A stretch of DNA of 64,000 nucleotides, taken from NCBI GenBank assembly GCA_025354565.1, contig JANXMQ010000022.1:20836-84835 (forward strand), given 5' to 3'. The stretch's first letter is position 1, and each line of letters begins with the position of its first letter. A model generated the notes under the pieces. The model made no database searches and had not been told where the DNA came from. It was given only the letters and a program-made list of their open reading frames with translations. This document shows positions 1 through 64,000 of this stretch, piece by piece. The stretch is from Akkermansiaceae bacterium (GTDB lineage Bacteria; Verrucomicrobiota; Verrucomicrobiia; Verrucomicrobiales; Akkermansiaceae). A program made the position numbers and the translations under genes.

Positions 1-1
1 A

Positions 2-538
2 AAAGAGGCCGACCTCCGCGCTTTCGCTGCCGAAAACCGCGATCTCCGACTGTTTGATGAAATCCTAACAGAAGAGGAAATCGCAGCCCATAACGGCCCA
101 TCCCGCCGCGCGAATCTTCACGAACTCCACGAATCCCACGCGATCAACCGCATCTTCTCCCGCCTCACCGAGTGTGGAATCGACACCACCGTTTTCTTCA
201 ACGATGATACGCCGATTTTTGAAGTCATCGAAGGGGATGGCGAAAAGCAAAAGATCACCCCGGTCTTCGCTGTCCCAGAAATCCTCGCAAAAGTCCTCGA
301 AATCGCCAGCCGGGGCATACAAATCAAGCGCTTCAAGGGCCTTGGCGAAATGAACGCCAAGCAGCTCTTCGAAACCACCATGGACCCGGAAGTCCGCCAG
401 TTCCTCCGCGTCCGCCTCGACGATGACAACGCTGTCGAAGCTGACAAGATGTTCGACGTCCTCATGGGCGACATCGTCGAACCCCGCAAACGCTTCATCG
501 AAGACAACGCCCTGAACGTGCGCAATCTCGACGTGTGA
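2..538 (+). CDS. gyrB: DNA gyrase subunit B, C-terminal part (5' truncated by window edge)
   Basis: Open frame from the window edge; ...[36 protein letters not shown]...[32 protein letters not shown] is the typical GyrB C-terminus; gyrA follows directly. Confidence 0.95.
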
Positions 539-572
539 TTATTCCCAACGATTCCTGACCCTTTTTGATACA

Positions 573-3191
573 ATGTCTGAAGCTAACATTAAACCTATCA
601 ACGTCGCCGAGGAGCTCTCCAAGTCCTTCTTGGAATACTCGATGTCGGTGATTATTTCCCGCGCCTTGCCCGATGTCCGTGACGGTCTCAAGCCTTCCCA
701 ACGCCGCATTCTTTATGCTATGCGCCAGCTCGGTGTCGGCCCCGGAAAACCCCACGTCAAGTGCGCCAAGATCGTCGGTGAAACGATGGGTAATTTCCAC
801 CCGCACGGTGACATGGCCATCTACGGCACGCTCGTCAATATGGGGCAACCGTGGTCGATGCGGGAAATGCTCATTGATGGCCAGGGTAACTTCGGTTCCG
901 TGGAAGGCGACTCCGCAGCTTCCATGCGTTACACCGAGGCCCGCTTGCATCCGTTAGGTCTTGCGATGATGGATGACCTCGACAAGGACACCGTTGATCT
1001 CGTCCCGAACTATGACGGCTCTCAGACTGAGCCATCGGTCATGCCATCAGCGTTTCCTAACTTTTTGGTCAATGGCAGCACCGGCATCGCGGTCGGCATG
1101 GCCACCAATCTCGCGTCGCACAACCTCGGCGAAGTCGTCGATGCGATCTGCGCACAGATCGACCACCCCGAGATCACGCTGCCCCAACTGATGGAGCACA
1201 TGAAAGGCCCGGATTTCCCCGTCGCCTGCGAAATTCGTGGCATCCGTGGCATTGAGGAATATTTCCGCACCGGTCGCGGCTCCATGCGGATGCGCGGGAA
1301 AATGGAGATTGAGGAACATGCCAACGGTCGCACTTATATCATCATCCGTGGTGTTCCCTACGGCGTGAACCGTGCAACGCTCCAAGAACGCATCGCTGAG
1401 TTGGTGAACGAAAAAACCCTCACGGGCATTTCCGGAATGCGGGATCTATCCGCCGAAGACACCTGCATCGAGATCGAGCTGAAACGTGATGCCCGCCCGC
1501 AGGTGGTCATGGCCCAGCTCTTCAAACTCACTTCCATGGAGACATCCTTCTCCGTGAACATGCTGGCGATTCATAAAAATCGCCCAAAGCAGCTCTCACT
1601 CAAGGAGTCCATCGACGCCTACATCGAGCATCGTCGTGAGGTCGTCACCCGGCGGACCCGTTATTTGTTAGGAAAAGCGGAGGAACGCGCAGAGTTGTTA
1701 GAAGCCTTCTTGCTCGCGCTCGGCCATCTCGATGATTTCATAAAAATCATTCGTTCTTCCAAGAACCGCGAGGAAGCCCGGGAACGTCTCACCGCTCATA
1801 GTTTTCCGGTCGCCACCGCTGAATCGCTGGGCATCCTCATTCGCTCGCAAGCCTCCATTTCCGGTGGGACTTACTATTTCAGCGAGCGTCAGGTCAACGC
1901 CATCCTAGAACTTCGTCTCTATCAGCTAACCGGCATGGAGCAAGACAAGGTAAAGGCCGAATACGATGGCGTGCTGACCGACATCAAGGACTTCCTCGAC
2001 ATTCTCGCCCGCGAGGAGCGCGTGCTCATCATCATCAAGGACGAGCTCCGCCTAATCAAAGACAAGTTCGCCACGCCACGTCGCTGCACCATAGTCGCAG
2101 AAGCCGGTGAAGTCGCGATGGAAGACCTCATCGCCAACGACGCGATGATCGTCACGCTCTCGCATCGGGGTTATATCAAGCGCACGCCATCAAGCGAATA
2201 CCGCGTCCAAGGCCGTGGCGGGAAAGGGCTCAAAGGCATGGAAACTCGCGCCACCAAGAAAGACGAGGCCGATGATTTCGTCGAGCATCTCTTCAGCGTC
2301 CAGGCTCACGACTATCTGTTATTTTTCACCAACACCGGTCGCATGTATGTAGAGCGGGTGTATGAACTCCCCGAAGGCTCTCGCACCGCGATGGGCCGCA
2401 GCATTCAAAACGTGCTCAACCTAAAGCCTGAGGAAAAAATCGCCGCGCTCCTCCGCCTCGAACGCACGGTGGATGAAAATGGCAACGACATCACCTTCCG
2501 CGAGGAAGCTGGTTTCGTCTTCTTCGCCACCCGCAGCGGCAAAGTGAAAAAAACCGCCGTAAATGAATTCAGAAATTATCGCAAAGACGGCATCATTGCA
2601 ATCAACCTCGAGGAGAATAATGAGCTGATTGGTGTCCGTCTAACATCTGGCAGCGATGAAATCATCCTGGTCACTCACGAAGGCATGAGCCTCCGTTTCC
2701 ATGAAGATGACACCCGTCCGTTAGGCCGTGGCACCGCCGGGGTCATGGGCATCCGTCCGAGTGAGACGGATTTCGTCATCGGCCTGGCCCTCGTCACCGA
2801 AGGATCGACTTTGTTAGTCGCCTCCGAAAATGGCATCGGCAAGCGGACCACCTTCGAGGACTACCGCAAGCAGTCGCGAGGTGGCAAAGGCATCATCACC
2901 ATGAAAGTCACCGACAAGACCGGACCGGTCGTCGGTGCCGTGACTGTCACTGAAGATGACGAACTCATGCTCATGACCTCCAGTGGCCAAAGCATCCGCA
3001 TCCGCGTCGCGGAAGTCCGGGCAGCGGGACGGAATACCATGGGCGTGAAACTTCTCACTCTCAAGAGCGGGGAAAAACTCCAGGACATTTCCATCGTCAT
3101 CCCGGATGGCGAGGATGCACAAAGCGATGAAACATCCAGCGACGGCGAAGACGGCGAAATAGAATCCGGTTCAGAAGATGCCACCGAATAA
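573..3191 (+). CDS. gyrA: DNA gyrase subunit A
   Basis: SFLEYSMSVIISRALPDVRDGLKPSQRRILYAM, QGNFGSVEGDSAASMRYTEARL (catalytic Tyr), C-terminal beta-pinwheel repeats. Confidence 0.98.
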   Translation: MSEANIKPINVAEELSKSFLEYSMSVIISRALPDVRDGLKPSQRRILYAMRQLGVGPGKPHVKCAKIVGETMGNFHPHGDMAIYGTLVNMGQPWSMREMLIDGQGNFGSVEGDSAASMRYTEARLHPLGLAMMDDLDKDTVDLVPNYDGSQTEPSVMPSAFPNFLVNGSTGIAVGMATNLASHNLGEVVDAICAQIDHPEITLPQLMEHMKGPDFPVACEIRGIRGIEEYFRTGRGSMRMRGKMEIEEHANGRTYIIIRGVPYGVNRATLQERIAELVNEKTLTGISGMRDLSAEDTCIEIELKRDARPQVVMAQLFKLTSMETSFSVNMLAIHKNRPKQLSLKESIDAYIEHRREVVTRRTRYLLGKAEERAELLEAFLLALGHLDDFIKIIRSSKNREEARERLTAHSFPVATAESLGILIRSQASISGGTYYFSERQVNAILELRLYQLTGMEQDKVKAEYDGVLTDIKDFLDILAREERVLIIIKDELRLIKDKFATPRRCTIVAEAGEVAMEDLIANDAMIVTLSHRGYIKRTPSSEYRVQGRGGKGLKGMETRATKKDEADDFVEHLFSVQAHDYLLFFTNTGRMYVERVYELPEGSRTAMGRSIQNVLNLKPEEKIAALLRLERTVDENGNDITFREEAGFVFFATRSGKVKKTAVNEFRNYRKDGIIAINLEENNELIGVRLTSGSDEIILVTHEGMSLRFHEDDTRPLGRGTAGVMGIRPSETDFVIGLALVTEGSTLLVASENGIGKRTTFEDYRKQSRGGKGIITMKVTDKTGPVVGAVTVTEDDELMLMTSSGQSIRIRVAEVRAAGRNTMGVKLLTLKSGEKLQDISIVIPDGEDAQSDETSSDGEDGEIESGSEDATE

Positions 3192-3353
3192 TACCGAAGA
3201 TGTTTCAGGCGTGCGGTATTGAGCGAACCAGCCTCCATCGCAGACTTTTAGTTGATACCGGTGAAATACGGTGGCAGATTCAGTTTGAGAAAGATCGAAT
3301 GATTCTAATATCATTCACGTCTTTATGACGAAACCTTAATCAAGGAGAAACAA

Positions 3354-5255
3354 ATGAATCTTAAAAAACATACTATTTTAGGAGGGTTCGCGCTATTTGC
3401 ACTAGTGGGAACCATCCCTGTCACCTGCCTCACCGCAGCCGAGGAGCCTAACGATCAGGGGGCGGAAGTCCAAACGCGAGGGCCGGTGCATGAAGCGTTT
3501 GCAGGGACGGTTTCTTTTGATCCCCAGGTCGGGATGATCGTGGACAAGGCCCCGCCTGCCTTGATCGAGGAAGTCCCGCCGGAGCAACGGCTGGAGGGGG
3601 AAAACGTCACTTGGATTCCGGGCTATTGGGCTTGGGATGAGGAACAGAACGACTTCTTGTGGATCAGCGGGATTTGGCGGAATTTGCCGCCGGGACGCCA
3701 ATGGGTGCCCGGCTATTGGGCGGATGCGAACGGCCGCTATCAATGGACCTCGGGTTACTGGGAGGATGCGGCGGCCAAGGAAGTTGCCTATTTGCCCGAG
3801 CCGCCGCATAGTGTCGAGACCGGACCTAACATTGAGGCATCGTCCAATGATCAAAATTGGATTCCAGGCAACTGGATCTGGCGTAACGAGCGTTATGCAT
3901 GGCGTGCAGGATACTGGACACCGGCGCGGGAAAACTGGTGTTGGGTTCCCGCGTATTATCGTTGGACTCATCGTGGATATATTTACGTAGATGGATTTTG
4001 GGATTACCCGGTGGCACGTCGTGGCGTGGTGTTTGCACCAGTGCGTTTCCAACCGGGCTATATTGCACGTCCGGGGTTTTTCTATTCACCCATAACGGTC
4101 ATTAGCCTGAACGTGTTTGCCAATCACCTGTTTCTGAGGCCGAATTACGGTCATTATTATTTCGGCGACTATTATGAACCGAGATACCGCAATCAGGGCT
4201 TCTTTGCTTCGTATTCCTATAACTCCGGCCACCGCGGTTATGATCCGATCTTTGCGCATTACCGTTGGGAGAACCGGAACGACCGGAATTGGGAAAACGG
4301 CCGCCGGGAGTATTTCGAGTATCGCCGGGATCATGTGGACGCCCGTCCACCTCGCACTTGGGCTGCCTTGAACGCCCGTCCACAGGGTGAACGGGAGCAC
4401 GGGGACTTCGCGGTGGCCCAGCGGTTTGATCGGGTCGTGGGCAACCACGCGGAGGGCGGCCAACGCTTCCAACCGGTGAATCAACAGGAACGCGAACGCT
4501 ATGTTTCTCAAAGTCATGAGATCCGTAAATTCGGTGATGACCGGGTGAAAATGGAAGCCCATGGGGCCAAGCCGGAAGGCAAAAACCAAGCGGTATCACG
4601 CGAAAAAATCAAGCGCTCCCCAGTCATGGCGAGCCATACCGCTCACGCTGACAAAGGTGGCGGGCCACCTGATAGATTGCAGCCGCGTGCTGCGGAGAAT
4701 GACCAAAATACCGATAAAGTTGGAAAAACCGATAAGGATAAGCATCCTAAGAACGACCCCACGCCGACTCCCGAACCCCGGGTGAAGCCTAGTCAGAAAC
4801 GTGACAAGCAGACCACCCCCGATCACGTCGCCGAGCCTGAGAAAAAGAAACATCAGACCGAACCAACACCGAAAGAGGCAGTTGTTCCCGAACATAAGGT
4901 CAAACCCAAGCACGATGCCGAAGCGAATCCAGTCCCTAGCGTGAAGCCCGAGGCAAAGTCCGATCCCGTCCCAGCCCACAAGGCCGAGCGGCATGTCGAG
5001 AAAAAAGCGGTGACCCCAGACCCTGTCCCGCAACGTCCCAAGCAACCCGCAAACGGAGAAGTCCAACAAGCGCACCCGAAAAAGAATCCGAACCAAGCGG
5101 TGACGCCAGCCCCCGTCCCGCAGCGTCCTAAGCAACCCGCAAACGGAGAGCAACAAGTTCGCCCGAAAAAGAACCCGAACCAAGCGGTGGTGCCGGAAGA
5201 AGGGCTGACCGATGAGCAGAAAAAGCGCCGTGCGAAAAAGCAGGCCGCAGAATAA
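3354..5255 (+). CDS. YXWGXW/WxPGYW-repeat secreted protein with Lys/Pro-rich C-terminal tail
   Basis: N-terminal signal-like segment; repeated W-I/V-P-G-Y/N-W motifs (WIPGYWAW, WVPGYWAD, WTSGYWED, WIPGNWIW, WRAGYWTP); low-complexity charged tail. Confidence 0.75.
   Translation: MNLKKHTILGGFALFALVGTIPVTCLTAAEEPNDQGAEVQTRGPVHEAFAGTVSFDPQVGMIVDKAPPALIEEVPPEQRLEGENVTWIPGYWAWDEEQNDFLWISGIWRNLPPGRQWVPGYWADANGRYQWTSGYWEDAAAKEVAYLPEPPHSVETGPNIEASSNDQNWIPGNWIWRNERYAWRAGYWTPARENWCWVPAYYRWTHRGYIYVDGFWDYPVARRGVVFAPVRFQPGYIARPGFFYSPITVISLNVFANHLFLRPNYGHYYFGDYYEPRYRNQGFFASYSYNSGHRGYDPIFAHYRWENRNDRNWENGRREYFEYRRDHVDARPPRTWAALNARPQGEREHGDFAVAQRFDRVVGNHAEGGQRFQPVNQQERERYVSQSHEIRKFGDDRVKMEAHGAKPEGKNQAVSREKIKRSPVMASHTAHADKGGGPPDRLQPRAAENDQNTDKVGKTDKDKHPKNDPTPTPEPRVKPSQKRDKQTTPDHVAEPEKKKHQTEPTPKEAVVPEHKVKPKHDAEANPVPSVKPEAKSDPVPAHKAERHVEKKAVTPDPVPQRPKQPANGEVQQAHPKKNPNQAVTPAPVPQRPKQPANGEQQVRPKKNPNQAVVPEEGLTDEQKKRRAKKQAAE
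5007..5183 (+). repeat. Two tandem ~90/87-bp coding repeats (AVTPxPVPQRPKQPANGE..PKKNPNQ)
   Basis: 5007-5096 and 5097-5183 encode near-identical 30/29-aa units. Confidence 0.85.
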
Positions 5256-5353: not shown

Positions 5354-8158
5354 TCACTTCAAGCGGATATAGCGCTTTGATTTGGGGGTGACGGGGGTGT
5401 TGTCACGGACCTTATAAAGCGTTCCATCGTCGATCATCACAGTGGTGTGTTGATTGCCACTGTACCAATCGAGAAGGTTCGAAGAGACCACAACATTACC
5501 CAAGCCCAGACTGTGCTTGGTACCCGTAAGCGCAAGGTATTTGCGCCCGGCAATCACTTCGATGGAAGTCAGGAGTTGTGGTAACAAGACCGTTTTATTC
5601 GGAGCGCTGGCAGAGTTAATTCCCTGATTTGCAGCGTAGAGATTCGTGAGGTTTGCCTTGGCGATATTTTGGATTGTGAGGACTTGTGGCGTGCCGGATG
5701 AGCTAATTCCGATATCAGGGAAGGCGGTGTTCATAAGCCCGGTAATGACATCCACTCCCGCTTGATTTTGGCTCGCTAATACTGGGGAAGTTGGCGGGAG
5801 GATAACACCATCGAGCCAAGCGCGGTCACTACTATCTGCGTAGCTATCATCCTTTTCATAGGTCCATTTGAACATGTGATACCCCGCAGTGACGGGAAAG
5901 GATGCATAAGTCCAATCCACTAGTCCTGATAGACCATCATATTTGTTGTTCGGCACGATGACTTGCGGCACGCCGTCGATGTAGAATCGGGCGAAATCGA
6001 AGCCCTCCTCGGAAGATACCTTGAGGCGGAAACCCACCCTGCCGGCTTGGAATTTCGCCCGGTATGCGATCGCCGCAGTTTTGCCATCCCCGATTGGAGT
6101 GGACATCAGGCAACGCGGTCCTTCGTAGGCGATGCTGCTAGTCACCTTCCAGCTACTCGCAGCGCCTGCAGGTTGGAACCAACCCGGTGGGAGCACGCCA
6201 CCTGCTGGGAATGTCGCGCTGATTGAGAACGGGCCATCACTGGCGTCCGAGACAGGGACGGGATTGGTGAGACTGCTGATGAGGATGCTATAGTCGTTGC
6301 CGATGGGTAGTGCGCGACTCACGAGCCAGGCGAAATGCCCGGTATCTGGCGCGTCCGCAGCCAAGACGGATCGTAAATGTCCGCCCATATAAAGAGCAAT
6401 TTTCACATTGCCTTTAATGGTTGATTGCCATGTGATATCGTATGTAGAATTAGGAAATGCCACGTCACCGCCATTCGGGCTTGTCACGATAAGCGTATCA
6501 GGGGGGTAGAGACCGAATTGGACGTTGGTTTTCGCGCCGAGCGCGGTGAGCACTTGGATATTGATCGAAGAGGCCGCGCCATTCCACCATTTCGCGTTGG
6601 GGGTGGTGGTATCCGTAAATAAAGCGGTCTGGAGGTCGAACAAGTCTGTTGAGTCGCCACGGTTGTTACCTTTTTCGAGATCTCTTCTCCCGTCCGCCTG
6701 CATCAAGGCGACTTCATAGTGGGAGCCTGTATTGGTGTTACCATCGATCGTTTCATCAATGTGCCAGATGGCGATGCCCTTATCGTCGGAGTATTGTGCC
6801 CATTTATCGCCAGTGCCCCGGTTTTCCGCGATGTAGAACTCCGTGCTCGTGCCGGGCTTACGAATCCGATAAGCGACGTTGCCAGTAGTGGGTAAGGTTG
6901 CCGTGATGTAGCTGGAAGAATTGATATCGGTGACATTACCCCAGCCGACGATGTCCTTGAAATAGGCATTGATAGGCGACGGGGTCTTGCCGCCGTTGAG
7001 ATAGTTACCGGAGCCCATGAGGCAGTGTTCGCCGACGCCTTCGCCAGTGAGCGCGTAAATATCCGGATAACCTAGCAGTAAGTGGCCGTTCTCATGGCAG
7101 AAGGTGCCGATGACGGGAGCCGCGTCGGCGATGTTAGTGATTTGGAACTTGTAGATATTGATCGGATTTGCCGTGGTTCCTACATTGATATCTTGGGCTA
7201 GGTTCCATTGTTGCGGCCAGAGGCCTTGGGCATAGACTCCGGAATCCTGGCCGGCAAACATGACATTGGTCGCGATGGCGCGGTTTTGTCCATCCAGGGT
7301 AAGGCTGGAAAAGTCGAAGCCTTGTGACTTGAGCAGGTTGACGGCATCCGTGATGAGCACGCGGCTGGCATCGCCCCGCAGACTTGCGTTCGTGGGATAA
7401 TCCGAAAAGTTATAATAATTCCGGGGGTGGGGGAGAGTGATAATTTCCGTGACAGTCTGCGTGTAGGTGACCTTGCCAAGCGACTGATCATAATAGTAAT
7501 CCCGGATCGAGCCGGTATTGCCGTTCTCCGTGTAGCCGATACCGTTGCAATAGCGGACGATCTTGTTGCGGTCTGTCGGAAAGTTGACGGGATCGTTGGC
7601 ACCGGTTTTGGGGTCGTTCGGGAATTGGGCGAGAATGGTGAGTCCCACTTTGTTGCCAAGCACCGGCGCGGCTAGGGCACTGGCTTGTGCGGCCTCGGCG
7701 GCGCTGAGCTTCGCGCCGTTTGCTGCGGCCCGGAGTTTTTCGACCGCTTGAACCCGGGCGTGCCACCGTTGATCGCGATCTCCGTCGTAGATGGCGCGGT
7801 TCGCATGGCTGATCTCGCCGATTTTCGTGGCGGGAAGTTCGAGATGTTTCGTCAAGCCGGCCGGGGCCTTGAGTCCGACTATGGCTCCCGTGGGCAGCCA
7901 TCCACTGCCATCCGGGGCGATTTCGGCATAGTGATAAGCGTTGTCCTTTGGGTTATAAACCACGGTGTAGCCATCCGTCGTTTCCGTGCGGGCGTAGTAT
8001 TCATCGCCGAAAACACGCAATGCCAACTCTGCGCCGCCTGGTTGAGTCCAACTCGTCTCTCTTCCGTCCGGGCCATAAGGTGCGGCGGTTGCGTAGCCGA
8101 GGCAACCTGCCAATAGAACGAGGAAACGATATGGCTTGAGGATTGTGGATTTGATCAT
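5354..8158 (-). CDS. M6-family secreted metalloprotease
   Basis: Signal peptide (MIKSTILKPYRFLVLLAGCLGYATA), zinc motif HENGHLLLGYPD, ELCLMGSGNY-like region (EHCLMGSGNY); start chosen at internal Met of ORF 5354..8200. Confidence 0.85.
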   Translation of the reverse strand: MIKSTILKPYRFLVLLAGCLGYATAAPYGPDGRETSWTQPGGAELALRVFGDEYYARTETTDGYTVVYNPKDNAYHYAEIAPDGSGWLPTGAIVGLKAPAGLTKHLELPATKIGEISHANRAIYDGDRDQRWHARVQAVEKLRAAANGAKLSAAEAAQASALAAPVLGNKVGLTILAQFPNDPKTGANDPVNFPTDRNKIVRYCNGIGYTENGNTGSIRDYYYDQSLGKVTYTQTVTEIITLPHPRNYYNFSDYPTNASLRGDASRVLITDAVNLLKSQGFDFSSLTLDGQNRAIATNVMFAGQDSGVYAQGLWPQQWNLAQDINVGTTANPINIYKFQITNIADAAPVIGTFCHENGHLLLGYPDIYALTGEGVGEHCLMGSGNYLNGGKTPSPINAYFKDIVGWGNVTDINSSSYITATLPTTGNVAYRIRKPGTSTEFYIAENRGTGDKWAQYSDDKGIAIWHIDETIDGNTNTGSHYEVALMQADGRRDLEKGNNRGDSTDLFDLQTALFTDTTTPNAKWWNGAASSINIQVLTALGAKTNVQFGLYPPDTLIVTSPNGGDVAFPNSTYDITWQSTIKGNVKIALYMGGHLRSVLAADAPDTGHFAWLVSRALPIGNDYSILISSLTNPVPVSDASDGPFSISATFPAGGVLPPGWFQPAGAASSWKVTSSIAYEGPRCLMSTPIGDGKTAAIAYRAKFQAGRVGFRLKVSSEEGFDFARFYIDGVPQVIVPNNKYDGLSGLVDWTYASFPVTAGYHMFKWTYEKDDSYADSSDRAWLDGVILPPTSPVLASQNQAGVDVITGLMNTAFPDIGISSSGTPQVLTIQNIAKANLTNLYAANQGINSASAPNKTVLLPQLLTSIEVIAGRKYLALTGTKHSLGLGNVVVSSNLLDWYSGNQHTTVMIDDGTLYKVRDNTPVTPKSKRYIRLK

Positions 8159-58647: not shown

Positions 58648-60111
58648 ATGCAATTCATGACGCCTCTCCAGAAAATCCTCGCCGCCTACCGCGCCACCTC
58701 CCAGACCGAGCGCGAAAAAGGCACCTACTTCGAGGAACTCATCCGCACCTACTTCCGCTTCGAGGCATCGTATGCCGATCTCTACTCCGATGTCTGGCTC
58801 TTCGCGGACTGGGCCAAGGCCCACGGTTTTTCCGCCAAGGACACCGGCATCGACCTCGTCGCCAAGACCCACGGCACCGAGGAATTCCACGCCATCCAGT
58901 GCAAGTGCTATGCCGAAGACTACCGCGTCCGCAAAGCCGACATCGACAGCTTCTTTACCGCCTCCGGCCAAGCGCCGTTCACCCAGCGCATCATCATCGT
59001 CATCACCACCAACGACTGGTCCGAGAACGCCGAAAACTCCCTCATCGGCCAGACCCCGCCCGTTTACAAGATCGACCTTCAAGCCCTCGAAAACTCGCAG
59101 ATCGACTGGGCGAAATACCAACCCTCCGCCGCCCCGGCGCTCAAGCAGAAGAAGGAACTCCGCAAGCACCAGACCAGCGCCAAGACCAATGTCCTGCTCG
59201 GTTTCAAGTCCGCGGACTGCGGCAAGCTGATCATGGCCTGTGGCACCGGGAAAACCTTCACCAGTCTCAAGATCGCCGAGGATGTGGCCGGGCCGGGAAA
59301 AATCACCCTCTTCCTCGTCCCCAGCCTGAACCTGCTTTCCCAGACCCTCACCGAGTGGACGCAGGAAAGCGCCGTGCCGCTCCATTCCTTCGCCGTCTGC
59401 TCGGATGCGGAGATCGGCAAGAAGCGCGCCAAGGACGAGGACATCGTGGAAACCTTCGCCCACGAGCTGCGCTACCCCGCCACCACCGATGCCAAGCGCC
59501 TCGCCCACGAGTTGAAGAAACGCCACGACGCTCAGCACATGAGCGTCATCTTCTCCACCTATCACTCGCTCGATGTCATCAGCCGCGCCCAGCATCTTTA
59601 CGGCCTGCCGGAGATCGGCCTCGTGATCTGCGACGAGGCCCACCGCACCACCGGAGCCACCTTCGAGGGCGATCAGGAAAGTAACTTCGTCAAAATCCAC
59701 GACAACCAGTTCATCCGCGCCGCCAAGCGCCTCTACATGACCGCCACCCCGCGGATCTATGGCTACATGGCCAAGGCCACTGCCGCACAGGACAACACCG
59801 TCCTCTACGACATGAACGACGAGAAGCAGTTCGGCAAGCAGCTCCACGTCATCACCTTCTCCGAGGCCGTCCAGATCAAGCTCCTCACCGATTACAAGGT
59901 TATCGTCCTCACCATCGACGAAGCCCACGTCTCCGCCCGCATCATTGGCTGTTGGAAAGCACTCGCCAAACGACCTCCAAGGATTTTTCGTGGTCCGAGA
60001 AATCTTACCCTTGTCGACCGGGGCCTAAAGCCCCAAACCCTCAGTGTCCGCCGAAGTCCTCGTGGAACTTGCTCTCATTTCCGTAAAATTCTCAGCCCGC
60101 AATTGTCATGA
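58648..60111 (+). pseudogene. N-terminal part of a type ISP-like restriction enzyme (Mrr-like nuclease + first helicase RecA-like domain), truncated after ~59943
   Basis: Nuclease-like DTGIDLVAKTHGTEEFHAIQCKCY; helicase motifs MACGTGKTFTSLKIAE, ICDEAHRTTGATF, MTATPRIYG; recognisable homology ends at TIDEAHVSARI, then an unrelated tail to the stop. Confidence 0.8.
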
Positions 60112-60566
60112 CCCGGATTTCTTTTTTTATAGCTGCGCGGCGCTTGCATTCGGATGCCACTTACTTGGCAAACGATGGAAGCGAAGATCGCAACCTTAAT
60201 GCCGGACATTTTTTTGGGCTTTCGGCAGAATGCGGGCTGAAGTATTTGCTGTTGCTATGCAACGGCCTACAGCGGGATCCTGTCACAGGAGACCTGCGTG
60301 GCTCACGGGCTCACGTTAATCAGATAATTGATGCCTCGGGCCTAGCGACGAGCTACCAGACTTTGGTTGCAGGTCATACTAATTCCCAATACTTCGCGCA
60401 TACTCCAACGCTTGCTGGTCTCCATTCTTGGAAGGCTGAGTTCCGCTACTACGATGCTGGCCATCCCGACTACCCGCAAGCTTCCGAACCCGACTGGCAA
60501 ACTGCTTCGCTGGAAATTCAGTCTGCCCTTGACTCAGCAATGCTCGATGGGCACCCCATTTATTGA
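60108..60566 (+). CDS. HEPN-like domain protein
   Basis: AARRLHSDATYLANDGSEDRNLNAGHFFGLSAECGLKYLLLL resembles HEPN-type helical proteins; RGSRAH (Rx4H) candidate motif. Confidence 0.55.
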   Translation: MTRISFFIAARRLHSDATYLANDGSEDRNLNAGHFFGLSAECGLKYLLLLCNGLQRDPVTGDLRGSRAHVNQIIDASGLATSYQTLVAGHTNSQYFAHTPTLAGLHSWKAEFRYYDAGHPDYPQASEPDWQTASLEIQSALDSAMLDGHPIY

Positions 60567-60569
60567 TCC

Positions 60570-61916
60570 ATGAAAATCATCCGCTTCAATCAAGGCCTTG
60601 AAATCGCCCGCAGCCTACTCGCCGAAAGTGAGTTGGTCCGCACCAAGGGGGCGGAGAATTTCGTATTGCTCCGTGACCTCTACGGCCGCCTGCGTCTTCT
60701 GTGCCCGCCGCTAACTAGCCAAGAATGTGAAGTGATGAAAAATGCGTGGATAGAAGCACTTGGGTCGAGCACGGACGTCGACCGGCCGATTCTTATCGAC
60801 TCCGACTTTTTCAATTCCACCGAAGTCCGCGCCAACCCGCTCTTGCAGTATCTGATGCTGGATGACGGGCCTCGCGAAATCTCCTTCGTCGATCGCGGCG
60901 TGATCGGAGCAGATTGGCTACAGGGTGCATTTCCTGAATTGGCAAGCACAGAGGGAAATCAGCACCCAAAACGAATTGTGTTTTTTGGTCTCAAGGGTGG
61001 AGTAGGGCGGACTACAGCACTGTGCCTAACCGCTCGGCATTTCGCTAAGCAGGGCTTGAAGGTTTTGGTGCTTGATATGGACCTCGAGTCGCCGGGCTTG
61101 AGCAGTCTGCTATTGCCTCTTACTGAACGGCCCCCACTTGGTATCATTGATTGGTTTATGGAGGATGGCTTGGGCCAAGCATCCCTCGACTTGCTCGATA
61201 AAATGGTTTCGTTCAGCCCCCTTGCATCAAATTGGCCCGGAATAATACGGGTGGCTCCTGCCTTCGGACGAGAGGAGACAGGTTACATTCCCAAACTCTC
61301 TCGTGTCTATGCCGACCTCGCACGTCAGGGGGAAAGCAAACAACAGAGCTTCCCTGAGCGCTTCTTCCGGATGCTTAGACATTTGGAGGAGGCAGAAAAA
61401 CCTGATGTGGTACTTTTGGATAGCCGTGCAGGAATGCATGACATCGCCGCCACACTTCTGGTTCGCTTGCCGGATGCGTTGAGGCTACTTTTTGCCAGCC
61501 ATTCCCCGCAGACATGGGAGGGTTACCGGTGCATGTTTGAGCACTGGCGCTCGTTCCCGCGTCATCTAGCGACCTTCCGTGACGGACTTCAACTCGTAGA
61601 CGCCATGATGCCGGAGACCGGTCGGCAGGAACATCGCGAGACATTTTCCGCTGCCGCTTACTCGCTCTTCAATGAAACACTTTATGAGGATATCCCGCCA
61701 GGGTCTGAATCCGGAGATATCTTCAACTTCCAAGAAGCAGATAGCGATGCGCCGCATTCTGCTCCCTCAATCATGTGGGACCGGAAATTTATGGAGTTTG
61801 ATCCGAATGAGGCCAATTCATCATTTCATGACGAGGACCTCATTCGCCTTTGCTACAGCGATTTTCTATCCTGTATCGAAGAGCGTCTTCAAATTGAACC
61901 ACGTTCAGAACTATGA
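60570..61916 (+). CDS. MinD/ParA-like SIMIBI ATPase with KGGVGRT motif variant
   Basis: KRIVFFGLKGGVGRTTALCLTARHFAKQGLKVLVLDMDLESPGLSSLLLP deviant Walker A/switch I; DVVLLDSRAGMHDIAA Walker B-like. Confidence 0.85.
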   Translation: MKIIRFNQGLEIARSLLAESELVRTKGAENFVLLRDLYGRLRLLCPPLTSQECEVMKNAWIEALGSSTDVDRPILIDSDFFNSTEVRANPLLQYLMLDDGPREISFVDRGVIGADWLQGAFPELASTEGNQHPKRIVFFGLKGGVGRTTALCLTARHFAKQGLKVLVLDMDLESPGLSSLLLPLTERPPLGIIDWFMEDGLGQASLDLLDKMVSFSPLASNWPGIIRVAPAFGREETGYIPKLSRVYADLARQGESKQQSFPERFFRMLRHLEEAEKPDVVLLDSRAGMHDIAATLLVRLPDALRLLFASHSPQTWEGYRCMFEHWRSFPRHLATFRDGLQLVDAMMPETGRQEHRETFSAAAYSLFNETLYEDIPPGSESGDIFNFQEADSDAPHSAPSIMWDRKFMEFDPNEANSSFHDEDLIRLCYSDFLSCIEERLQIEPRSEL

Positions 61917-63445
61917 GCACCCCATTTTCTATCGATTCCGCCGATCTCCGAGGGGCTATCGCCAAGGCGTGCGAAGTCACCGCCACGATCGACGACCCAG
62001 GTAAAGTAGCCGACGCGTTGGTTACCTTTTCTCAGGCAAAAGCACTCGACTACAAGACTGCAATTGTTCGGGGAGGACGAGGGAGTGGGAAGAGTTTCTG
62101 GTGGGCGGCTTTACAAAGGGAGGAGCATCGACGGTGGATCACCAACACCCTTGGGGCAAAACTCTCTCCCGCCGACAATCTCGAAGTCATCCCCGGCTTT
62201 GGAATATCTGTGAGAACAGAAAGTTACCCTTCTCCGCGAGTTTTGGGAAATCTTACGAAGGATCACTCATCTCATTTGGAGGATATCTGGACAACGGTCC
62301 TCCTCAAGCAGGCCATTCCTCAAGAGACCTCACCTTACCATGGTATGAACACGTGGGCCGATAGGGTAAAATGGACCGCGGACAATGTCGAAATTGTGGA
62401 AGGTCTGATACTCGCTTTGGTGAAACGCTTGGAGGATCAAAATGCACATCTTTTGATCGCATTCGATGGGCTTGATCGACTAGGCTCCACGTGGGAAGAA
62501 ATCCGCCCACTAGCCCGCTCAATTCTTCGTTTCAGCCTTCAGCTTCAATCTTTTTCAAGGATCAGAGCAAAAGTGTTTCTCCGGCCAGACATGTTTGATG
62601 ATCCGCAAATCGTCGCATTTCCTGACGCTTCGAAATTGCTCGATGGTCATGCATGTTTGGATTGGAGTCCTGTGGAACTTTACGCGCTCTTTTTTCAGCG
62701 GATGGCGAATGCCGATCATGAAGAAGCGGCCAAAGCGTTTCGAGATGGTACCATTCAGATTCTGTCGAGCAATGGTTTCCTGCCGGCGAAGTGGGAGAAT
62801 AAGGAAAATGTTTGGGGACTTCCGGCTCCCATCAAAGCCGAAGCGAAAGCTCAACGGGAGATGTTTCACGCTCTTTCAGGTGGAGCGATGAGCCATAATC
62901 AGAAGAGTGTGAAACGTGGCTACCCTTATACCTGGTTGCCAAACCATCTTGCCGACAGCCACGGTGAAATCAGCCCTCGCAGTTTTCTCGCTGCGCTCCG
63001 CGAGGCTGCTGCGGTTGAGCCACCATCAAATACTTCCCTGCCACTCTACTTTACGGGCATCCAGCAAGGTGTCTCCGCAGCCTCTCAAACACGCGTGAAA
63101 GAAATTACAGAGGACTATCCTTGGGTTGGCGAAGTGATGGGTGCGTTAAACGCCCGGATCAATGTGCCTTGTGATCAGTCAGACATATTCTCAATTTGGG
63201 AGCATGAGGATGTATTTTCTACGATAAATCGCTCAAAAGGCAGTGATGCTGATGAGTTCTCGGCGAAGCTCGGTCCAACGTTTTCTCCACAGAATCAAAC
63301 AGAAGGACTTTTTGAGAACCTGATCCGACTCGGGATCTTTTCCCGGCAGAAAGCAAACCGTGTCCAGATGCCCGACGTGTATCGAGTCGCGTTCGGAATC
63401 GGTCGCAAAGGAGGAATTCCGCCGATTCGGCAGACACTTCACTAA
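61913..63445 (+). CDS. P-loop ATPase (AAA/STAND-like) paired with the KGGVGR ATPase
   Basis: AIVRGGRGSGKSFWWAAL Walker A; LLIAFDGLDRLG Walker B; FLRPDMFDDPQIVAFPDASKLLDGHACLDWSPVELYALFFQRM; ATGA overlap with preceding gene. Confidence 0.8.
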   Translation: MSTPFSIDSADLRGAIAKACEVTATIDDPGKVADALVTFSQAKALDYKTAIVRGGRGSGKSFWWAALQREEHRRWITNTLGAKLSPADNLEVIPGFGISVRTESYPSPRVLGNLTKDHSSHLEDIWTTVLLKQAIPQETSPYHGMNTWADRVKWTADNVEIVEGLILALVKRLEDQNAHLLIAFDGLDRLGSTWEEIRPLARSILRFSLQLQSFSRIRAKVFLRPDMFDDPQIVAFPDASKLLDGHACLDWSPVELYALFFQRMANADHEEAAKAFRDGTIQILSSNGFLPAKWENKENVWGLPAPIKAEAKAQREMFHALSGGAMSHNQKSVKRGYPYTWLPNHLADSHGEISPRSFLAALREAAAVEPPSNTSLPLYFTGIQQGVSAASQTRVKEITEDYPWVGEVMGALNARINVPCDQSDIFSIWEHEDVFSTINRSKGSDADEFSAKLGPTFSPQNQTEGLFENLIRLGIFSRQKANRVQMPDVYRVAFGIGRKGGIPPIRQTLH

Positions 63446-63453
63446 CACTGATT

Positions 63454-64000
63454 TATGAGCTTATATTTACTGCACTTTACGGGTTGCTGCATTCCCCGGA
63501 CTACCGCAGCCGCTATGCCGACAACCTCGGCAAGGAACTCCCGCGCATCCCCGCCGTGAAGACGTTTGCGGATTTCCGCGCCTTCTCCCAAGCTGGCCGC
63601 GAGCTGGCGCATTGGCATTTGAACTACGAGACCGTGGAATGTTTCCCGGGCGTGGTGGTGGCAGTCGGTAAGGAGGAGAGACCTTATTGTCCCTCTTCTT
63701 CGGCGGCGAATGCGGAAGAGGCGACAATAAGGTCGCCGCTCCTTAATTTCCGCGTCACCAAAATGAAGTTCGCCAAGAAAAAGGACCCGGAAACCAACAA
63801 GAGCGTCAACGACAAGACCACCGTCATCTACAACGAAACCATCACCCTCAGAAACATCCCGCTCGCCGCCTACGACTACATCGTCAACGGCAAGCCCGCC
63901 CTCGAATGGGTCATGGAGCGCCAGTCCGTCACCACCGACAAAGACAGCGGCATCACCAACGACGCCAACCTCTGGGCCACCGAAACCATGGGCAACCCCA
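63454..64000 (+). pseudogene. C-terminal (target-recognition-like) part of a type ISP-like restriction enzyme, no start codon, runs off window
   Basis: Frame 1: YELIFTALYGLLHSPDYRSRYADNLGKELPRIPAVKTFADFRAFSQAGRELAHWHLNYETVECFPG...NFRVTKMKFAKKKDPETNKSVNDKTTVIYNETITLRNIPLAAYDYIVNGKPALEWVMERQ. Confidence 0.75.
63669..63746. repeat. 78-bp palindromic (REP/MITE-like) element inserted in frame in the type ISP C-terminal fragment
   Basis: Left arm taaggaggagagaccttattgtccctcttc and right arm ggaagaggcgacaataaggtcgccgctccttaa are near-perfect reverse complements around a ~15-nt loop. Confidence 0.85.

Follow-up and report, generated by a model that had tools for sequence, protein, structure and literature searches.

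Close to the 3' end of the window (the whole 64,000-nt stretch of Akkermansiaceae DNA that was analysed), a long palindrome lies in frame within a restriction-enzyme-like coding sequence, which raises the question of what this element is and how it came to lie there. The original prediction described a long imperfect inverted repeat of 78 nt that is open in the host frame. The inverted repeat was borne out by two ungapped arms (63669-63691 and 63723-63745; 23 nt, 87% complementarity), and the stem extends inward to about 30 pairs on folding. The host ORF is also open across 63669-63745. The in-frame segment does measure 78 nt; however, the unit of the repeat family is 77 nt (TAAGG...CCTTA), and base 78 belongs to the junction or to the host. 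The unit (63669-63745) with this one extra base encodes KEERPYCPSSSAANAEEATIRSPLLN. The RNA fold has a minimum free energy of -48 kcal/mol (z = -5.1), which none of 200 shuffled sequences reached, and the DNA fold gave -27.8 kcal/mol (z = -5.7). Among the inverted repeats with a span up to 130 nt, the palindrome is unique in its score class within the 64 kb.

The palindrome is a REPIN (REP doublet) on the forward strand, composed of two inverted REP-like arms with a spacer. The 5' arm (63669-63693, forward strand) has the head TAAGGAG followed by the hairpin GAGAC-CTTATT-GTCCC, and the inverted 3' arm (63721-63745, reverse strand) has the same head with the hairpin GCGAC-CTTATT-GTCGC. A covariance model was built from 19 aligned copies, and its search of the 5.1 Mb host genome revealed 23 places at E ≤ 1e-6; the proposed REP-type nature of the element thus agrees with its copy number, and a single-copy element can be dismissed. 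The aligned copies share the TAAGGAG head (in nearly all of the 19), a hairpin on GACCTTATTGTC, a spacer, and then the inverse; the loop variants among relatives are ATTCCT or ACTCTT. The family is carried by 17 of the 37 genomes of the genus, namely the host genome and 16 others with related copies; none of the 22 other genomes of the order searched outside the genus was positive. The canonical REP is defined by a 5' tetranucleotide GTAG or GTGG (PMC3686654), whereas nearly all copies here begin with TAAGGAG instead. The element is therefore assigned to the REPINs by its anatomy and its RAYT linkage, and not to the canonical GTAG REPs.

A RAYT-like HUH transposase gene of 200 residues was found on contig C220 (4779-5378, reverse strand), flanked by the same REPINs (C220:4698-4778 and 5466-5545), so that the search for a RAYT/Y1 transposase suggested with the original prediction was successful. 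The protein matched the NCBIfam model of the REP-associated tyrosine transposase (REP_Tyr_transpos; E 6.7e-16) with 58.5 of 80 bits, which is below the curated cut-off, and the E. coli TnpA-REP structure 4er8 (E 4e-4). The HUH motif (NHxH) and the Tyr are retained by six homologues from the genus (62-79% identity). Four relatives have their RAYT homologue between two REPINs, and in three others a REPIN lies on one side of the gene. The host genome also includes three further RAYT-like genes. From these sequence comparisons we infer that the C220 RAYT probably catalysed both the dispersal and the insertion of the REPINs.

At least 12 copies of the family lie inside a longer palindrome, whose outer arms resemble TACTGCCGCGCATCAGGATTTGTG/CACAAATCATGACGCGTGGCAGTA; such nested copies may therefore represent a second, MITE-like unit of dispersal. 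The enclosing palindrome is about 145 bp long, with outer arms (TACTGCC..CAGGATTTGTG) and TA ends, and was observed around REPINs at L004, L007, L008, L009, L010, L011, L012, L013 and L015. It resembles a composite MITE, possibly an IS630-like one. The intragenic copies are not of the nested kind and have no outer arms, and the REPINs of the C220 RAYT gene lack them as well.

The window copy sits in a Type ISP gene that is truncated on its 5' side; the remaining tail (63468-64000, forward strand) encodes part of the C-terminal specificity domain. The ORF matched Pfam Type_ISP_C (PF18135; E 2.6e-48) at positions 197-334 of 342, and its similarity to full-length homologues begins only at 63468. 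The restriction-enzyme C-terminal domain was thus correctly recognised in the original prediction; however, it belongs to a fragment and not to an intact enzyme. The contig ends with the window, and the gene tail runs off it and continues on contig C200; the two contigs are joined by a 141-nt exact overlap, which is probably the k-mer length of the assembler. Upstream lies the cut-off N-terminal part of a Type ISP gene (58648-60111, forward strand) with a Mrr-type nuclease and the first helicase part (Pfam Mrr_cat_2 and ResIII), which matched the PADLOC model REase_MTase_IIG at positions 2-432 of 1646. Between the two parts is the three-gene cassette PDC-M28A/B/C (60108-63445, forward strand; PADLOC E-values 2.7e-21, 2e-127 and 8.1e-141), a candidate defence system. 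This complete candidate cassette takes the place of the middle part of the Type ISP gene. No complete nuclease-ATPase-coupler-MTase-TRD polypeptide was found at this locus; all that is left is the first 432 model positions at the N-terminus and a portion of the C-terminal domain, with PDC-M28 between them. The dN/dS of the tail fragment against intact homologues is 0.13-0.29, like that between intact genes, which suggests that the gene break is recent or that little decay has followed it.

Positions 58648-64000 together with positions 1-3805 of the C200 locus (L120) form an array of defence cassettes on a Type ISP gene. The order is the N-terminal part, PDC-M28, the REPIN-bearing tail, a HEC-01A/B-like cassette, a second tail (C200:2408-2556, 96.6% identical), and a further HEC-01A-like gene. 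A second copy of the Type ISP 3' tail, lying about 1-2.5 kb downstream of the first and separated from it by a cassette, was also observed at a second locus of the host genome (L291 on C82 with L177 on C231) and at four others: L042 (448-666 and 2338-2490), L049 (3352-3567 and 4825-4953), L053 (3358-3573 and 6087-6278), and L088 from Gallionella (3322-3537 and 5023-5145). The cassette of L049 encodes a ThsB-like TIR protein. The tail of the Type ISP gene looks like a recurrent junction for cassette insertion or recombination.

Alignment with uninterrupted homologues, as proposed with the original prediction, located the REPIN between the NYETV motif and YRVTKMKF, where the homologues have a hypervariable loop. 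Palindrome-free homologues exist and have 17-25 residues in this loop, and the inserted peptide is therefore not conserved in distant homologues. In the window gene most of the loop, about 10 codons, is replaced by the REPIN; since the closest homologues differ in the loop, neither the precise junction nor a possible loss of bases can be read. The match to LlaGI is interrupted between residues 1302 and 1307. This point follows closely on the jaw (1240-1296), where the second core segment begins, and falls outside the recognition loops IV-VI (PMC4872093). The AlphaFold model has moderate overall confidence (mean pLDDT 64) with pLDDT below 50 at residues 74-92, as might be expected for a floppy loop. 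The addition of a peptide to a working protein is not supported for the window copy, with its truncated ORF and replaced loop, and is better supported by two other copies in the same genome. One of them is found, again in frame, in a Type ISP paralogue of 1147 residues that appears to be intact (C231:254-335), at residues ~1036-1062 within Type_ISP_C (759-1138); this site was equated with the window loop by its position after the HSPxYR...LPR(I/V)P...LA segment, and not by structure. The other lies in frame in an HsdM gene (C45:29253-29324).

The locus is best explained as a RAYT-dispersed REPIN that replaced part of the hypervariable loop of a Type ISP gene in frame, and we assign this reading a probability of about 0.88. 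The RAYT-type HUH transposase of C220 probably spread the non-autonomous REPIN doublet through the genome. One copy would have landed in the Type ISP gene, or in what remained of it if truncation came before insertion (the order of the two events is a point of inference), where it would have replaced part of a hypervariable loop on the surface of the target-recognition domain, close to the boundary between jaw and core. The reading frame was kept since REPINs are open in several frames and the net length was permissive. Eight of 22 copies have a length that is a multiple of 3, and 46 of the 132 strand-frames of these copies (~35%) are free of stops; a random insertion would thus keep the frame about once in 8 times. 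Broken genes are also harder to recognise or are lost, and the in-frame survivors would need no special mechanism. That the insertion was tolerated is most likely due to the position of the loop outside the DNA-recognition loops, and the persistence of the element would reflect tolerance and not benefit.

All three intragenic in-frame copies in the host genome, including that in the window tail, sit in restriction-modification genes. An insertion preference for such genes was considered; it is weakened by a urea amidolyase case and by many unrelated hosts in Prosthecobacter-like genomes. In the former, a 59-nt REPIN lies in frame in the carboxyltransferase domain of a urea amidolyase-like gene (L221:1710-1768 and L270:1771-1829), and was apparently inherited by the two genus members that share it. 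In the latter (G001-G003), many GTGA-headed REP(IN)s lie in frame in long ORFs (L128, L131, L137, L138, L140, L148 and L153), with Mfd-like, DUF7133, PSD cytochrome, Copper-bind and sialidase-like hosts, which suggests protein-coding REPINs on a large scale. Other ORFs in relatives that apparently span a repeat were rejected. Most of them had no Pfam match, and in others the repeat is upstream of the domain (miaA, hisA-like, gatC, pfkB); they are probably upstream or intergenic insertions.

Other palindromes (GTGAGACAGACACTCCTGTCTG.. and GTGATGCGGGCACTCCTGCCCGC..) lie in frame in the same Type ISP loop at the Verrucomicrobiaceae/Prosthecobacter MAG loci L042, L043 and L054. These palindromes are multicopy in their own genomes and unrelated to the window family. 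A single event probably underlies the repeats of L043 and L054; L042 has a different one at this point, which either a second insertion or a replacement could explain. A seemingly repeat-derived peptide, LDSRLRGNDDDGRGNDERGG, in the same loop of a Nitrosovibrio MAG (L114) is a lead only, and the repeat search found no inverted repeat of the set length in that loop. Further long palindromes were observed in frame elsewhere in the Type ISP ORFs (~1200 residues) of L043 (1429-1526, 98 nt) and L114 (2754-2839, 86 nt). Recurrence at one Type ISP loop was not found in the main texts searched, which cover part of the literature. It might be speculated, as a rather unlikely possibility, that unrelated REPIN families across Verrucomicrobiota insert repeatedly and in frame into the jaw/core loop of Type ISP target-recognition domains, with restriction-modification genes as preferred intragenic hosts.

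It is quite improbable that the REPIN is kept for a function. Such a function might be the tuning of the Type ISP enzyme by the peptide or by the hairpin in the mRNA, or a role of REPINs in specificity genes as recombination points at which restriction-modification domains are exchanged. The restriction-modification hosts of the three intragenic copies, the unrelated palindromes at the same loop in relatives, and the intact-like dN/dS of the flanking fragment would be in accordance with such a role. Against it stand the broken state of the window gene and the position of the hypervariable loop outside the recognition loops; the intragenic copies of relatives also occur in many other types of proteins, and the low dN/dS may merely reflect a recent break.

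Two further explanations concern the origin of the palindrome. Spread within a DDE-type MITE with longer terminal repeats, and not by a RAYT, is suggested by the nested copies with their outer inverted arms and TA ends; however, these arms are absent from the window, intragenic and C220 copies, and RAYT genes are flanked by REPINs across the genus. Inspection by eye of the window copy also showed no target-site duplication, so that the MITE alternative of the original prediction did not hold at this copy, and we consider such an origin very improbable. A local single-copy structure (terminator, attenuator or chance hairpin) would account for the strength of the fold, whereas the palindrome is multicopy with defined ends, occurs beside RAYT genes, and has no T-run after the hairpin; moreover, Rfam returned only sub-threshold miRNA matches, which were judged to be chance. 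A local origin is already refuted by the copy number. The RAYT-dispersed REPIN therefore remains the preferred reading.

Comparable elements have been described in other bacteria. The REPINs of Pseudomonas fluorescens SBW25 (PMC3116915) also consist of two inverted REPs with a spacer, and are multicopy and RAYT-linked; whereas the SBW25 REPs are almost wholly extragenic, the family here has the TAAGGAG head and three copies in genes. In-frame REP singles and dimers, which add 20-30 residues, were reported in protein genes of the verrucomicrobium Opitutus terrae, where they are most abundant, and of others; different REPs also occur at about one recB site in two Xanthomonas species (PMC3733652). 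Those REPs have GTAG or CGTC tags in contrast to TAAGGAG, and the main text of that paper does not mention restriction enzymes, whereas the hosts here are restriction-modification genes. The RPEs of Rickettsia are the classic case of in-frame palindromes, and are likewise dispersed within protein genes; however, they are about 150 bp long and form ten families, whereas the present unit is 77 nt with a linked RAYT (PMC10969869).

In-frame REPs are thus already known, and the window case belongs to a REPIN/RAYT system whose TAAGGAG head is unusual. This system is documented here in one verrucomicrobial genus, where the repeats recode loops of defence enzymes. If the Type ISP loop were truly a recurrent landing site, REPINs would diversify or regulate defence enzymes and would not be merely tolerated. 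The recurrence at the same loop would also provide a natural set of alleles, in which neutral loop fillers may be distinguished from an effect on enzyme specificity.
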